DNA of 51,764 nt from a bacterium (GTDB taxonomy: Bacteria > CG2-30-53-67 > CG2-30-70-394): the NCBI GenBank assembly GCA_024278555.1, contig JAJRSX010000146.1, positions 1-51,764 on the forward strand. Reading direction: 5' to 3'. Positions 11,827 through 34,751 of the stretch are shown one piece after another. The position numbers were made by a program, and so were the translations under genes. Every line of letters starts with the position of its first letter. Within the stretch, counting starts at the first letter, position 1. Below the pieces are notes generated by a model, which saw only the letters and a list, made by a program, of their open reading frames with translations, ran no database searches and was not told where the DNA came from.

Positions 11827-15379
<3,553 letters not shown>

Positions 15380-26177: not shown

Positions 26178-27557
26178 CTACCGCAACCCGTAGTCCTTGA
26201 GGCGGCGGTAGAGGGTCCGTTCGCTGATGCCGAGGGCGTCGGCGACGCGGCGGCGGTGGCCGTGGTAGCGGTCGAGGAGCTCGGCGATGTAGCGCCGTTC
26301 GACCTCGGCGATGGAGGGGGGGTCACCCTGGTCGGGGGCGACGACGGTGGCGGAAGTGGCCGCTGCGTGGGCGGGTCGCGGCGGGTCGAGGGGGGCGCGC
26401 CACGCCTCGAAGCGGGCGACCACCTGCTCGATGGCGTCGGCGTCGATGCGGTTGCAGCCGCAGGTGGCGGCGGCCACCTGGAGGAGGTTTCTGAGCTCCC
26501 GAATGTTGCCCGGGAAGGTGTGGCGCTGGAGGAGGGCGATCGCCTCCGGGGTGACGGTGACCGCCCGGCCGCCGGCGACCGGCGGCAGGGTGGCGACCAG
26601 CTCGGCGGCGAGCAGCGGCAGGTCGTCGAGACGCTCTCGAAGGGGCGGCGCGTGGATGGTGAAGCAGGCGATCCGGTAGTAGAGGTCCTCGCGGAAGGTG
26701 GAGGCGTGGACACACTCCCAGAGCGACCGGTTGGTGGCGCACACCACCCGTACGTCGACCCGCCGGGTGGCCTCGCCCCCGACCCGGCGGAATTCGTGGG
26801 TCTCCAGCACCCGCAGGAGCTTTGCCTGGGTGGCGAGGGGCATCTCGCCGATCTCGTCGAGGAAGAGGGTGCCGCCGTCGGCGAGCTCGAAGAGGCCGTT
26901 GCGGCTGCCCACCGAGCCGGTAAACGAGCCGCGCTCGTGGCCGAAGACCTCGCTCTCGAAGAGCGACTCGGTGAGGGTGGTGCAATCGAGGCAGATGAAG
27001 GGCTTGTCGCGACGTTCCGACTGGCGGTGGATGAAGGCGGCGGCGAGCTCCTTGCCGGTGCCGGTCTCGCCCTGGATGAGGACCGGGCTGGTGGTCGCCG
27101 CGGCGTGCTCCAGACGTTCGACCATCGCCAGGAAGATCGGTGTACGGCCGACCATCCGTGGTCCGTCGGGGGATCGCTCCAGGTCGTGGTCCTGGGCGGC
27201 GATCTCGCACATCCCCTCGCCGAGGAAGGTGGCGCCGCCGTCGGCGGTAAGGCGGTGGCCGGTGACCCGCACCCAGCGGGTGGCGCCGCGGCCGTCGAAG
27301 TGGGTGTGCAGGCAGCTCCGCCGCTCCTGCCCTTCGAAGACCTGCCGGTGGGGGCACTCCTCACCGTGCTCGAAGCAGGGGTGGTCGTGGTGGTGGGAGA
27401 CCTTGTAGCAGTTGCGTCCCACCACATCGTCGGCGTGGACGTGGTAGGCGACCTCGTAGGCGCGGTTTACCGCGACGATGCGGAACGACTCATCGATCAC
27501 CGCAAAGGGTTGATCGTGGGTCTCCAGCCAGCTCGTGAAGTCGATGTGGTTGGGCAT
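26178..27557 (-). CDS. PAS-domain sigma-54-dependent transcriptional activator
   Basis: A 459-residue enhancer-binding protein. An N-terminal PAS domain (about 10-120) contains CYKVSHHHDHPCFEHGEECP (50-69) plus Cys82, a Cys/His-rich patch that could bind metal, haem or respond to thiols. The AAA+ domain has Walker A GETGTGK (163-169). The loop that contacts sigma-54 reads GSFTGS at 210-215 instead of GAFTGA. A Fis-type helix-turn-helix closes the protein (VADALGISERTLYRRL). There is no receiver domain. It is divergent from the SQR gene, which has a sigma-54 promoter, so that operon is its likely target. Confidence 0.92.
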   Translation of the reverse strand: MPNHIDFTSWLETHDQPFAVIDESFRIVAVNRAYEVAYHVHADDVVGRNCYKVSHHHDHPCFEHGEECPHRQVFEGQERRSCLHTHFDGRGATRWVRVTGHRLTADGGATFLGEGMCEIAAQDHDLERSPDGPRMVGRTPIFLAMVERLEHAAATTSPVLIQGETGTGKELAAAFIHRQSERRDKPFICLDCTTLTESLFESEVFGHERGSFTGSVGSRNGLFELADGGTLFLDEIGEMPLATQAKLLRVLETHEFRRVGGEATRRVDVRVVCATNRSLWECVHASTFREDLYYRIACFTIHAPPLRERLDDLPLLAAELVATLPPVAGGRAVTVTPEAIALLQRHTFPGNIRELRNLLQVAAATCGCNRIDADAIEQVVARFEAWRAPLDPPRPAHAAATSATVVAPDQGDPPSIAEVERRYIAELLDRYHGHRRRVADALGISERTLYRRLKDYGLR

Positions 27558-27823: not shown

Positions 27824-27839
27824 TGGCATGTCTCTTGCT
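27824..27839 (+). promoter_or_regulatory. sigma-54 (-24/-12) promoter for the SQR operon
   Basis: TGGCATG-TCTC-TTGCT matches the sigma-54 consensus TGGCACG-N4-TTGCW at all but one base, with the essential GG and GC at exact spacing. Transcription should start near 27851, giving a leader of about 53 bases with AAGGAGG before the SQR gene. A sigma-54 activator is encoded divergently next door. Confidence 0.85.
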
Positions 27840-27903: not shown

Positions 27904-29361
27904 ATGGCGCGTCTCTTGATCCTGGGTGCGGGTGTCGCCGGCCACACCGCGGCCTCGTTCGCCCAGCGGTGGCTCGGTAAGAAGCACGAGGTGGTCGTGG
28001 TGTCGCCCAACTCGATGTACAACTGGATCCCGTCGAACATCTGGGTCGGGGTCGGACGGATGAAGCCGGAGAAGGTGGTCGTCGAGCTCGCCCCCATCTA
28101 CCGCAAGGCGGGGATCGACTTCCGCCAGGCCCGCTGCCTCTCCATCCACCCGGAGGGGGGCGAGAGCGGCGGCCAGCCGTACGTCACCGTTGAATGCACC
28201 GATCCGGCGCGCCGGGGCGAGCGGGAGGAGATCGCCTACGACTACCTGGTGAACGCCACCGGACCCAAGCTCAACTTCGGCGCCACCGAGGGGCTCGGGC
28301 CGGAGGGCAACTCCCTCTCCGTGTGCACCTACGGCCACGCCGAGGCGGCGGCGCGGGCCTTTGAGGAGTCGATCCAGCGGATGGAGCGGGGTGAGCACCA
28401 GGAGATCGTGATCGGTACCGGCCACGGCATGTGTACCTGCCAGGGCGCCGCCTTCGAGTACCTGTTCAACGTCGAGCAGGAGCTGAGAAGGCGCGGGGTG
28501 CGCGACAAGGCGACCCTCCACTGGCTCTCCAACGAGTACGAGGCGGGCGACTTCGGCATGGGCGGCATGCACCTGAAGCGGGGCGGCTACGTCACCCACT
28601 CGAAGGTCTTCACCGAGTCGCTGCTGGCCGAGCGGGGGGTGAACTGGCACCTGCGCGCCCACACCACCGCGGTGGAGCCGCACAAGGTCCACTACGAGAC
28701 CCTCGACGGGGAGAACCACGAGCTTCCCTTCGACTTCACCATGCTCATCCCCCCCTTCGCCGGGGTCGGCCTGCAGGCGTACGACCGCAAGGGGGCGGAG
28801 ATCACCGAGCGGCTCTTCAATCCGGGCGGCTTCATGTGGGTGGACGGCGACTACCAGGCAAAGCCGTTCGAGCAGTGGGAGGCGAGCGATTGGCCGCGCA
28901 CCTACCAGAACCCCCACTACCCGAACATCTTCGCCGCCGGCATCGCCTTTGCCCCGCCGCACCCGGTCTCCAAGCCGATGAAGAGCGTCAACGGCACCCC
29001 CATCTTCCCGACCCCGCCGCGCACCGGCATGCCGTCGGCGATGATCGGCAAGGCGGTGGTCGCCTCGATCCGCGACATGCTCAACCGCGGCGCCACCGAG
29101 CCGACCCACACCGCCTCGATGGCGGAGATGGGGGCGGCGTGCGTCGCCTCCGCCGGTACCGGCCTCTTCAACGGGACCGCCGCCTCGATGACCGTCTATC
29201 CGATCGTCCCCGACTTCAAGAAATACCCGGAGTACGGCCGCGACCTCAACCTCACCTTCGGCGAGCTCGGCCTCGCCGGCCATTGGATCAAGTACATCCT
29301 CCACGTGATGTTCCTCTACAAGGCGCGCCAGCGGTTTGGCTGGAGCATGATCCCAGAGTAG
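27904..29361 (+). CDS. sqr: sulfide:quinone oxidoreductase-like flavoprotein
   Basis: Membrane-attached FAD enzyme likely to oxidise sulfide or a related sulfur compound and reduce quinone. The N-terminal FAD motif is LLILGAGVAGHTAA (4-17). Cysteines typical of SQR are present: Cys141 (SVCTYGHA), Cys177/Cys179 (GMCTCQGAAFEY) and Cys413 (GAACVASAG). The C-terminus ends in amphipathic segments (GHWIKYILHVMFLYKA, FGWSMIPE) like SQR membrane anchors. At 485 residues it is longer than classical 430-residue SQRs. A perfect AAGGAGG precedes the ATG at 27904, and a sigma-54 promoter lies upstream. The SQR type is not determined. Confidence 0.83.
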   Translation: MARLLILGAGVAGHTAASFAQRWLGKKHEVVVVSPNSMYNWIPSNIWVGVGRMKPEKVVVELAPIYRKAGIDFRQARCLSIHPEGGESGGQPYVTVECTDPARRGEREEIAYDYLVNATGPKLNFGATEGLGPEGNSLSVCTYGHAEAAARAFEESIQRMERGEHQEIVIGTGHGMCTCQGAAFEYLFNVEQELRRRGVRDKATLHWLSNEYEAGDFGMGGMHLKRGGYVTHSKVFTESLLAERGVNWHLRAHTTAVEPHKVHYETLDGENHELPFDFTMLIPPFAGVGLQAYDRKGAEITERLFNPGGFMWVDGDYQAKPFEQWEASDWPRTYQNPHYPNIFAAGIAFAPPHPVSKPMKSVNGTPIFPTPPRTGMPSAMIGKAVVASIRDMLNRGATEPTHTASMAEMGAACVASAGTGLFNGTAASMTVYPIVPDFKKYPEYGRDLNLTFGELGLAGHWIKYILHVMFLYKARQRFGWSMIPE

Positions 29362-29400
29362 AAAAACAACGAGCCAAAAATTACCGAAAAGGAGATCGAC

Positions 29401-29553
29401 ATGACGAATCCAAAGCCTTACGAGCAGGGCTATTTTCCCCCCGTGCCCACCAGCGCCACCCGCTTCTGGCGGACCAACCTCCTGTGGCAGGTGTGGCGCC
29501 TCCTGCGGATCAACATGAAGATGGTCCGGGTGATCCGCGCCAGCCATCGCTGA
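29401..29553 (+). CDS. 50-residue basic peptide, paralogue A
   Basis: Too short for usual cut-offs but well supported: AAGGAG precedes the ATG, it follows the SQR gene by 39 bases, and it is paralogous over its whole length to the peptide at 29815 (33 of 50 residues by eye). The sequence opens MTNPKPYEQGYFPPVPTSAT, then RFWRTNLLWQVWRLLRINMK and MVRVIRASHR. The N-terminus is Pro/Tyr-rich, and residues 21-48 would form a strongly basic amphipathic helix with Trp residues, suited to lie on a membrane surface. The function is unknown; the context suggests an accessory of the SQR system. Confidence 0.85.
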   Translation: MTNPKPYEQGYFPPVPTSATRFWRTNLLWQVWRLLRINMKMVRVIRASHR

Positions 29554-29587
29554 CCCCTGATCCCTCCCTCTGTGGGGGTCAGTGTTC

Positions 29588-29617
29588 GAGAGCGGGTCGC
29601 GTGAGCGGCCCGCTCTC
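29588..29617 (+). terminator. hairpin after the SQR-peptide A operon
   Basis: GAGAGCGGG (29588-29596) pairs perfectly with CCCGCTCTC (29609-29617); the loop can add three inner pairs. It lies 35 bases after peptide A. No U-tract follows, so it may be an mRNA-stabilising structure or a Rho-assisted end instead of an intrinsic terminator. Confidence 0.45.
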
Positions 29618-29770
29618 ACCGTTTGTGGCGCAATGGTTACCCTGCTTGGTGGGTCATTGTTTCATAGTGTGTATGACATTCACTTTCTTGTATGAAAAGG
29701 TTTCGTTAGCGGACAAAAAAGTGGTTTCTGGTTGAATCACCATGTTGTCGATGGGCTCTGGGAAAAAATA

Positions 29771-29789
29771 GCGACCCCTTTCGGGTCGC
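29771..29789 (+). terminator. hairpin in the leader of peptide B
   Basis: GCGACCC-CTTTC-GGGTCGC is a perfect 7-bp stem located 25 bases before the peptide B start, preceded by GGAAAAAATA. It could be an attenuator or simply the end of transcripts coming from peptide A. The surrounding 29640-29770 stretch is AT-richer than the genome and may contain a separate promoter for peptide B. Confidence 0.4.
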
Positions 29790-29814
29790 GAAATCTAGTG
29801 CTTGGGAGTCCATC

Positions 29815-29967
29815 ATGGCCAACCGCAAGCCGTACCAGCAGGCGTATTATCCCCCCATGCCGACCCGCGCCACGCGCTTCTGGCGCACCAACGGTCTGTA
29901 CCAGGCGTGGCGCTTCCTGGTGATCAACCTGAAGATGGTCCGGGTGATCTCCCGCAGCCACCACTGA
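29815..29967 (+). CDS. 50-residue basic peptide, paralogue B
   Basis: It begins MANRKPYQQAYYPPMPTRAT, continues RFWRTNGLYQAWRFLVINLK and ends MVRVISRSHH. It is the same length as peptide A and aligns without gaps; shared columns are KPY-Q-Y-PP-PT-ATRFWRTN-L-Q-WR-L-IN-KMVRVI-SH. Differences are mostly at third codon positions or conservative, which indicates purifying selection on the protein. The upstream region contains a hairpin (29771-29789) and GGGAG before the ATG. The function is unknown. Confidence 0.82.
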   Translation: MANRKPYQQAYYPPMPTRATRFWRTNGLYQAWRFLVINLKMVRVISRSHH

Positions 29968-30049: not shown

Positions 30050-30694
30050 ATGATGCGTCGCCTCCTCACCCTTCCCCTCGCCCTGCTGGTCGCCGCGGTC
30101 CCGGCGGCGGCCGATGACCTCGCCACCGAGATCCTCCACCTGCAACAGCGGTGGGCGAAGGTGGCCTACCAGATGGAGCCGGAGGGGCGCGCCGCCGCCT
30201 TCGAGGCGATCGCCGCCGACACCCACCGGCTCGCCGAGCGCCACCCGGATCGGGCCGAGCCGCTCATCTGGGAGGGGGTGGTGCGGGCGAGCGAGGCGGG
30301 CGCCAAGGGGGGGCTGGGGGCCCTGAAGCTCGCCAAGGCGGCGCGGCGACTCTTGCTCGCTGCGGAAAAGATCGACCCGGAGGCGCTCGACGGCGATATC
30401 TACGTCACCCTCGGCGCCCTCTACACCCGGGCGCCCGGGTGGCCCATCGGTTTTGGCGACAAGAAGGAGGCGGAGCGGTACCTGAAGCGTGCCCTGGCGC
30501 TGCACCCGGACCACATCGACCCCAACTACTTCTACGGCGACTGGCTGATCCGTCGCCACCGGTACGAGGAGGCGATCCCCTACCTGGAGCGTGCCCTGGC
30601 GGCCCCGCCCCGCCCCGGCCGGCCGGTCGCCGATGCCGGTCGCCGGGCGATGGTCGAGAAGGCCCTGGAAAGGGCGCGGGCGAAGGTGCGGTAG
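30050..30694 (+). CDS. exported TPR-repeat protein
   Basis: A 214-residue protein with a signal peptide (MMRRLLTLPLALLVAAVPAA, cut before Asp) and alpha-helical repeats. Residues about 135-190 hold TPR-like sequence (GDKKEAERYLKRALALHPDH and RYEEAIPYLERALAAP). It probably acts in the periplasm in protein-protein contact; no partner can be named. It lies 82 bases after peptide B on the same strand and might belong to the SQR-associated set. Confidence 0.72.
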   Translation: MMRRLLTLPLALLVAAVPAAADDLATEILHLQQRWAKVAYQMEPEGRAAAFEAIAADTHRLAERHPDRAEPLIWEGVVRASEAGAKGGLGALKLAKAARRLLLAAEKIDPEALDGDIYVTLGALYTRAPGWPIGFGDKKEAERYLKRALALHPDHIDPNYFYGDWLIRRHRYEEAIPYLERALAAPPRPGRPVADAGRRAMVEKALERARAKVR

Positions 30695-32997: not shown

Positions 32998-33010
32998 CAT
33001 TAGCTATCCT
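32982..33010 (+). promoter_or_regulatory. sigma-70 promoter of hipBA
   Basis: TTGCAT (32982-32987) and TATCCT (33005-33010) are 17 bases apart. The start would be near 33017, about 32 bases before the hipB ATG. The promoter is enclosed by operators O3 and O4. Confidence 0.6.
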
Positions 33011-33021
33011 TGTGGCTGAAA

Positions 33022-33037
33022 TTGCGTTTCGATGCAA
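33022..33037. promoter_or_regulatory. HipB-like operator O4 (TTGC-N8-GCAA)
   Basis: TTGCGTTTCGATGCAA starts 40 bases after O3 and ends 11 bases before the hipB ATG, over the expected transcription start. Confidence 0.7.
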
Positions 33038-33048
33038 CTCAACCCTCA

Positions 33049-33315
33049 ATGAGCCCTCCCCCCCCCCCACCGGCGCCTCCCCTGCCCCTCCACCTCCTGG
33101 AGGAGATCCTCGCGGCGGCCCGCGCCCAGGGTCTTGACCAGCGGCGGCTGGCGGCCCGCGCCTCCCTCTCCCCCTTCACCATCAGCCGCCTGAAGCGGCA
33201 GGGCGACGCCTCGCTGACCACCCTCTCCCGGCTGGCCGCCGCGGTGGGGCTGCGCCTCGCCCTGGTCCCGGACGACGAGGTGGTGGCGGACGTGGAGCGG
33301 GGGGAGCTCTTCTGA
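33049..33315 (+). CDS. hipB: HipB-like helix-turn-helix antitoxin
   Basis: An 88-residue protein with a Cro/C1-type helix-turn-helix: LDQRRLAARASLSPFTISRL followed by ASLTTLSRLAAAVGLRLALV. A Pro-rich N-terminal tail ([11 protein letters not shown]) precedes it. HipB proteins dimerise on palindromic operators and sequester HipA. ATG 33049 is preferred because the predicted transcript begins near 33017; no Shine-Dalgarno sequence is visible. Its stop and the hipA start share one base (TGATG). Confidence 0.85.
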   Translation: MSPPPPPPAPPLPLHLLEEILAAARAQGLDQRRLAARASLSPFTISRLKRQGDASLTTLSRLAAAVGLRLALVPDDEVVADVERGELF

Positions 33316-34751
33316 TGGCGCCGCCGACGCCGGAGAGGGACCACCTGGCGGTGGTCTGGACGCGGGCCGGGGGGGTGCCGGTGAAGATGGGGAGCCTCTA
33401 CGTGAACGAGGCGGAGGCGCGCTTCCAGTATGCCGAGCCCTTCGTCGACGCCCACCTCCCGGGCCTCTCCCTCCTCTACCCCCCCGCCCTCTACGGCGCC
33501 CGGCCGGTGGTCTACCGGCGCGGCGGCCGCCTCCACCCGCGCTTCCAGGCCCTGATCCCGCCGGCGGGCCGCCACGCCTTCCTGCGCCACCTCCTCCTCG
33601 CCGCCCTGCGCGCCCGCGGCGAGGCGCCCACCCCCGGCTTCGAGGAGGATTGGGCCCTGCTGCTCCTTGCCGGCCACGGCTCCATCGGCCACGTGGACTG
33701 CTTCGCAGACGACGAGGCGGCGCGTGCCTGGTACACGGAGGCGCCCACCCCCCCCCTGGTGGAGGTGGGGCCGCGCCTCGGGGCGACCCTGCGCGACCTG
33801 GTGGCGTGGCTCGACGCGGACGCCGCGCCGCTCCTGCATCTGCTCGGGCCGACCCCCACGGTCGGCGGCGCGGTGCCCAAGCTCCTGTTGGCGATCCCGG
33901 CGACCGGGTGGACCGGGGAGGTGGCGGTCCCCACCCGAGGCGGGGCTGCGGACCGAGGCGGGGCGGGGGGCCGAGGCGGCGGGGCGGAGGCAGAGCGCAT
34001 CGACGTGGTCCTCAAGCTGGAGCGCACCGCCGTCTATCCGGGGCTGGTGGAGCTGGAGGCGATGGCCCTGGCGGTGCACCGCGACGCCAGCTTCGCGGTC
34101 CCCCGCTTCTGGGTCGCCGAGGTCGCCGGCCTGCCCGCCCTGGCGGTGGAGCGGTTCGACCGCGACGCCCACGGCGCGCCCATCCCCTTTGAGAGCTGGT
34201 TCACCCTCCTTGCCGGCGGCGCCCGCGACATCGCCACCCCGTACGACAGTGCCCTGGAGCGGATCGGCCGCGCCCTCGACACCCCGCGGCTGGCCCTGGT
34301 GGACGACCCGCGGGCGGCCAAGCGCCACCTCTTCCTACGCCTGGTGATGGCCCTGCTCACCGGCAACGGCGACCTCCACCTCGACAACCTCGCCCTCCTC
34401 GGCGGTGACGGCGGCTCGGGCGGCGGGGCGCACTTCTCGCCGGTCTACGACCCGACGCCGATGCGCGCCTACTCCCTCCACGACATGGTCACCCCGCTGC
34501 CCTTCGGAGACTACGGCCAGCCGGCGGCCGGCCTCGACCACCCGGTCACCCTGATCGAGGCAGTGGCCCGCTTCGGCGGTGCTCTGGGGATCCGTCGCGA
34601 CGAGCGGGCGGCCCTACTGGGCCGGGCCCTGGCCGCCACCGCCGACTACCCGGAGCGGGTGGCGGCGCTCACCCGCCTGCCGGAGCCCAACAAGCGGCGC
34701 CTGGAGGCGATCGCCCTGGAGGTGCGCGACCGCCTCGCGCCGGCGGCGTGA
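33315..34751 (+). CDS. hipA: HipA-like serine/threonine kinase toxin
   Basis: A 478-residue HipA-fold kinase. Recognisable parts are the N-terminal subdomain (VKMGSLYVNEAEARFQYAEP), the Gly-rich loop VGGAVPKLLL (183-192), Lys234 in VVLKLE, the catalytic loop NGDLHLDN (351-358) and the metal-binding VYDPTP (377-382). E. coli HipA arrests growth by phosphorylating GltX; targets of other branches differ. A Gly/Ala-rich insertion (about 200-228) between the loop and Lys234 is unusual. It is coupled to hipB by a one-base overlap. Confidence 0.87.
   Translation: MAPPTPERDHLAVVWTRAGGVPVKMGSLYVNEAEARFQYAEPFVDAHLPGLSLLYPPALYGARPVVYRRGGRLHPRFQALIPPAGRHAFLRHLLLAALRARGEAPTPGFEEDWALLLLAGHGSIGHVDCFADDEAARAWYTEAPTPPLVEVGPRLGATLRDLVAWLDADAAPLLHLLGPTPTVGGAVPKLLLAIPATGWTGEVAVPTRGGAADRGGAGGRGGGAEAERIDVVLKLERTAVYPGLVELEAMALAVHRDASFAVPRFWVAEVAGLPALAVERFDRDAHGAPIPFESWFTLLAGGARDIATPYDSALERIGRALDTPRLALVDDPRAAKRHLFLRLVMALLTGNGDLHLDNLALLGGDGGSGGGAHFSPVYDPTPMRAYSLHDMVTPLPFGDYGQPAAGLDHPVTLIEAVARFGGALGIRRDERAALLGRALAATADYPERVAALTRLPEPNKRRLEAIALEVRDRLAPAA

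Follow-up and report, generated by a model that had tools for sequence, protein, structure and literature searches.

Two paralogous 50-residue peptides encoded behind a sulfide:quinone oxidoreductase gene as probable small subunits of the type IV enzyme

Two short genes located behind a sulfide:quinone oxidoreductase (SQR) gene were analysed here in a bacterial contig of 51,764 nucleotides (JAJRSX010000146.1), the whole of which is called the window below. Type IV SQR (SqrD) probably has a dedicated, obligate small subunit, of which their 50-residue products would be two copies; it may dock on the C-terminal domain of the enzyme as partial anchor and/or wall of the quinone pocket. More than 200 gene copies were checked in many phyla, and without exception a peptide gene of this family stood directly 3' of a type IV SQR gene. 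A subunit is the simplest account because the peptide was never encountered without the enzyme, nor the enzyme without the peptide. The textbook single-protein type IV SQR thus probably has a small, undescribed second subunit.

Sulfide enters both respiration and anoxygenic photosynthesis through SQR, whose type IV is a principal sulfide oxidiser in green and purple sulfur bacteria as well as in many chemolithotrophs. In Chlorobaculum tepidum, this type has been credited with the larger part of SQR activity (PMC3368242). If type IV SQR needs a partner of 38-73 residues, this could help explain the difficult heterologous expression of SQRs, and the cloning, assay and modelling of type IV enzymes would change.

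The SQR gene and its small neighbours in the window

The features considered are the following.
26178-27557, minus strand: divergent activator gene with PAS, sigma-54-interaction AAA+ and Fis-type HTH domains (PF00158, E 1.3e-65; PAS; HTH_8)
27824-27839, plus strand: sigma-54 (-24/-12) promoter-like site TGGCATGTCTCTTGCT upstream of the SQR gene, exact consensus match
27904-29361, plus strand: type IV (SqrD-like) sulfide:quinone oxidoreductase, 485 residues; best PDB match Aquifex SQR; conserved C141, C179 and C413; same family as Alvin_2145
29389-29394, plus strand: AAGGAG ribosome-binding site of the first peptide gene, read from the sequence and kept in the sister genome
29401-29553, plus strand: first copy of the putative small SQR partner, 50 residues, ATG ORF in operonic position, the more derived copy
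29588-29617, plus strand: 13-bp hairpin between the two peptide genes, just after the first (RNA fold z = -5.2 for the stretch)
29771-29789, plus strand: 7-bp perfect hairpin in the leader of the second peptide gene (sequence and RNA fold)
29815-29967, plus strand: second copy of the putative small SQR partner, 50 residues, ATG ORF, nearer the family consensus

The window SQR found its best PDB sequence match in Aquifex SQR (E 4.6e-39, phmmer) and superposed on type I SQRs with TM scores of 0.82-0.88 (Foldseek). Residues C141, C179 and C413 were invariant in SQR alignments and lined up with the cysteines of Aquifex SQR; judged by fold and these three cysteines, the protein is a genuine SQR. 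Alanine precedes the third cysteine (A412-C413-V414), which is a quinone-site difference of type IV (PMC9666304), and A412 together with the match to reference type IV enzymes identifies the window protein as type IV (SqrD). The PDB search yielded no solved structure of a type IV SQR. In the genome taken as Chlorobaculum tepidum, an SQR gene accompanied by the peptide was located at 112 kb and is presumably CT0117, which is expected there. The genome taken as Allochromatium vinosum DSM 180 displayed a single strong SQR match, likewise accompanied by the peptide, in an order-wide search (2,456,049-2,457,503), which its type IV status and position lead us to equate with Alvin_2145; in this species, Alvin_2145 is of type IV and Alvin_1195 of type VI (PMC3368242). 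Another copy of the pair resided on plasmid pTs485 of Thiodictyon syntrophicum.

A preliminary description of this DNA had announced two equal-length ORFs about two thirds identical, and indeed both products measured exactly 50 residues and shared 68% identity in an ungapped alignment. Their ATRFWRTN core, Trp/Arg-rich tail and KMVRVI-xx-SH ending were all present as described, and so were the AAGGAG of the first gene and its start 39 nt past the SQR stop codon TAG (29359-29361). The second gene had its own leader of 261 nt, in which the reported perfect hairpin was recovered as a 7-bp stem. Both copies were also found in the nearest genome (L003, the sister genome; G001 and G060 denote one and the same genome), each at 86% amino acid identity, so that the duplication is older than the split of the two species. 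Crude Nei-Gojobori pN/pS values between window and sister genome were 0.24 for the first copy, 0.35 for the second and 0.21 for SQR. From these comparisons both copies are under purifying selection, and the occurrence of both ORFs in the sister genome at low pN/pS argues that both are maintained proteins. Among everything examined, the duplication was confined to the source genus. The second copy, a duplicate whose leader is separate, presumably serves different expression or dosage; differential expression would be a reasonable reading, since both copies are under purifying selection with conserved RNA hairpins between them.

Site TGGCATGTCTCTTGCT was the sole exact match to TGGCAYRNNNNTTGCW within the window, and the sister genome displayed CGGCACACCCCTTGCT at the aligned position, the site being largely kept. 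The activator gene was divergent from SQR in the sister genome too. The label of a sigma-54-controlled SQR, given initially, fits this perfect site and the divergent PAS/sigma-54 activator, and together they suggest sigma-54-controlled sulfide oxidation in the source genus. Related activator genes also occurred within ~7 kb of SQR at loci L004 and L010. The 13-bp hairpin had a matching stem with paired base changes in the sister genome and no T-run after it; it may act as a stabiliser of the SQR-peptide message, as an attenuator or as a separator of two transcripts. At the place of the 7-bp hairpin, the sister genome displayed a shorter, GC-changed stem.

Other genes of the window were noted as well. 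A TPR protein with a likely signal peptide followed the second peptide gene (30050-30694) and lay outside the conserved unit. Genes recF and gyrB were found in tandem (11827-15379), so the window may be near a replication origin. A small HTH ORF overlapped a HipA-like kinase ORF by visual inspection (33010-34751), forming a possible toxin-antitoxin pair.

The peptide family and its pairing with type IV SQR

Apart from minor variants, all members of the family displayed a common core, (W/Y)Qxx(R/K)Fxx(I/L)NxK, whose glutamine never varied among the distinct peptides (116 of 116). Sizes ranged from 38 to 73 residues. Most members carried an extended N-terminal Pro/Tyr-rich arm, PYQQAYYPPxPT, which was missing from the short forms of Chlorobia and some Bacteroidota. 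Searches of Pfam and NCBIfam yielded no match above curated cut-off, even with 38 diverse members, and the absence of a named family noted at the outset holds for these two databases. A profile of the 38 members retrieved no more than a chance match from PDB sequences, and no relatives were found on viral contigs. Three plasmid records carry a RefSeq annotation of the gene, and the name, when seen, was 'hypothetical protein'. As judged from their conservation, the peptides were shown to form a real, conserved and unnamed protein family.

A first scan, with the second peptide as query against 84,980 species genomes, gave 18 loci, and all 18 consisted of SQR followed by the peptide, in at least seven phyla (some hosts are MAGs, whose names were taken as given). 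No third conserved gene surrounded the pair across these 18 loci. The family was encountered in Gamma-, Beta- and Alphaproteobacteria, Bacteroidota, Planctomycetota, Armatimonadota, Acidobacteriota, Campylobacterota and the window's own group. Wherever it was found in Alpha- and Betaproteobacteria, Planctomycetota, Armatimonadota and Acidobacteriota, the peptide stood behind a type IV SQR.

Reciprocal tests were performed on two groups. In Chromatiales, the order of Halochromatium (147 genomes, peptide cut-off above 20 bits), the peptide accompanied 62 of 63 SQR matches, the exception being an SQR fragment whose contig ends 2 nt later, hence 62 of the 62 testable; in the reverse direction, all 62 peptide matches above 20 bits adjoined SQR. 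In Bacteroidota, the phylum of Prolixibacter and here including Chlorobia, a sample of 396 genomes had the peptide tabulated 4-254 nt downstream of 104 of 105 SQR matches. The first 16 peptide residues were visible before the contig end at the remaining one, which completed the count to 105 of 105. Six peptides of this sample seemed to stand alone: five were at contig ends and one was frameshifted behind an SQR pseudogene. The peptide was also present at all 30 SQR loci examined in Campylobacterota. No solo peptide was found in the sampled groups, apparent cases being contig ends or decaying pairs.

The association also followed divergence of the enzyme. Divergent SQRs (480-540 bits) came with correspondingly divergent peptides of 38 residues, and the peptide was absent from weaker SQR relatives (178 bits and below). 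SQR and peptide distances correlated with r = 0.85, a value that shared descent alone would equally produce. Chlorobia genomes, for example G249, G281, G296 and G311 (L138-L141), harbored, beside the usual type IV gene, a second divergent SQR (~490 bits, 477 residues) with a 38-residue peptide. Decaying pairs were observed at L172 (G177:C8), L170 (G058:C78) and L212 (G567:C37). Such pairs displayed either an internal deletion fusing SQR to the peptide tail (G177:C8) or a broken SQR followed by a peptide remnant; no intact natural SQR-peptide fusion was seen, the decayed G177:C8 being the sole case.

At the level of gene order, an obligate, reciprocal pairing of the peptide with type IV SQR, and with no other type, was shown. 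The preliminary description had proposed a small partner of SQR or of the DsrJOP proteins and a search for homologues beside sqr or dsr genes. Relatives were located in many phyla, each time next to type IV SQR, and the role of a small SQR partner is strongly supported by this near-universal, reciprocal and immediate adjacency to one SQR type. A partner of DsrJOP was not upheld: no gene but SQR is conserved beside the peptide across phyla, though dsrO and dsrP are found upstream in the window.

Predicted docking and alternative roles

A single chain composed of SQR, linker and first peptide was modelled with AlphaFold2, the SQR stop codon TAG being read as Gln and the alignment being assembled from the window and related loci. 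This construct profited from the fact that the first peptide happens to be in frame with the SQR stop, with 13 sense codons between them. The shared frame raised the possibility of programmed read-through, which was rejected, as only 46 of 117 distinct pairs were in frame, which is close to chance, and many linkers contained several stops. The tethered chain reached a mean pLDDT of 82.0 and a pTM of 0.84 with a disordered linker, and the peptide formed helices at its residues 18-25 and 27-48 with pLDDT of only 61-78. The control kept these 18 SQR rows and omitted the peptide; its core was the same, but residues 41-60 and 411-460 scored far lower in confidence. In these two segments, addition of the peptide raised mean pLDDT by 21 versus 1.4 (sd 4.1) elsewhere, a difference obtained with an artificial tether and one run each. 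The C-terminal domain of SQR hosts quinone and membrane binding (PMC9666304). Since residues 411-460 belong to it and gained confidence, the result was read as predicted docking on that domain, and the models suggest, as a hint rather than a demonstration, that the peptide docks on the membrane/quinone domain.

Alignments of SQR and peptide gave no clear co-variation signal: 24-26.5% of the top pairs fell in the predicted region against 20% expected (175 pairs, effective number 70), and clade structure dominated. The core helix was basic, with a mean hydrophobicity of -0.12 to 0.37, and was no more amphipathic than its own shuffles (P 0.14-0.52), though strong amphipathicity had been expected. 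A membrane-surface helix was for this reason not demonstrated; the initially suggested role of membrane-surface accessory is plausible and was tested weakly, through the AlphaFold2 confidence differences.

From the gene pairing we infer that the peptide physically binds SQR, and the tethered model hints that the site may lie on the C-terminal domain. The peptide would be translated right after the SQR flavoprotein, its C-terminal helix would dock on the membrane-facing C-terminal (quinone) domain, and it would there supply part of the monotopic membrane anchor and/or the quinone-pocket wall. The second copy in the source genus would represent a local elaboration with its own hairpin-bearing leader. 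A more specific arrangement, which is possible and only tentatively put forward, is a split membrane/quinone domain: type IV SQR would contribute its C-terminal helix and the small subunit its own helix, the two jointly forming the monotopic anchor and the quinone channel, and the invariant Gln and conserved Arg/Lys residues of the peptide would bind quinone or hold the domain together.

In the main rival reading, the peptide acts as a dedicated factor in assembling or maturing type IV SQR (for instance in FAD insertion, folding or membrane delivery) and leaves the finished enzyme. It would entail the same obligate pairing, adjacency arising equally, and short one-domain proteins can work in this way, as SdhE does in flavinylation. 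We nevertheless consider it rather unlikely in view of the ~1:1 gene order directly behind SQR, of other SQR types without known need of such a factor and, weakly, of the AlphaFold2 placement at the C-terminal domain. A regulator of SQR (inhibitor, sulfide/quinone sensor or proteolysis tag), with the two copies as two regulatory settings, would suit the separate leader and conserved hairpin of the second copy as well as the duplication with divergence of the operonic copy; it seems improbable, as loss or relocation would be expected in some of the more than 200 copies and was never seen. Still less probable is a link from SQR to another complex (DsrMKJOP, sulfur-globule or polysulfide handling), which the upstream dsrO and dsrP of the window might recall, since the pair occurs without other conserved neighbour, including on plasmids. 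Chance ORFs or an RNA feature without protein function can practically be dismissed: short ORFs easily arise in a GC-rich genome, but a protein conserved in many phyla, with invariant residues, purifying selection and a gene annotated by RefSeq in those plasmid records, has a distribution that already refutes them.

Comparison with known systems

Alvin_2145 of A. vinosum and CT0117 of C. tepidum belong to the same type IV SqrD family as the window SQR. SQRs are described as single-subunit flavoproteins (PMC10892978), and no paper found in the open full-text literature (paywalled papers lie outside it) mentioned a partner peptide.

The type II NADH dehydrogenase YjlD of Bacillus subtilis, with its neighbour-encoded small partner YjlC (PDB 9a63), is likewise a monotopic quinone reductase of two dinucleotide folds with a dedicated partner, and PMC10090944 makes no mention of YjlC. 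YjlD was a fold neighbour of the window SQR. The family of YjlC is presumably DUF1641. This domain (PF07849) matched none of the 38 diverse peptides, and was found in one of eight host genomes searched, elsewhere than the SQR-peptide pair. By analogy, YjlC is the closest conceptual relative of the peptide, from another family.

Alvin_1196/1197, downstream of SqrF (type VI SQR) in A. vinosum, have been proposed to attach their enzyme to the membrane (PMC10892978). They also stand behind an SQR gene, but of another type, and are not universal (missing in Thiocapsa bogorovii).

CydX of cytochrome bd and subunit IIa of B-type oxidases are single transmembrane helices. Unlike these, the SQR peptide combines a Pro/Tyr-rich arm with a basic helix of ~22 residues and displays no clear transmembrane segment, and no homology is claimed. 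The likeness lies elsewhere: like the SQR peptide, both CydX and subunit IIa (PMC3128077) are very short, are found beside a respiratory enzyme and were long missed by annotation.
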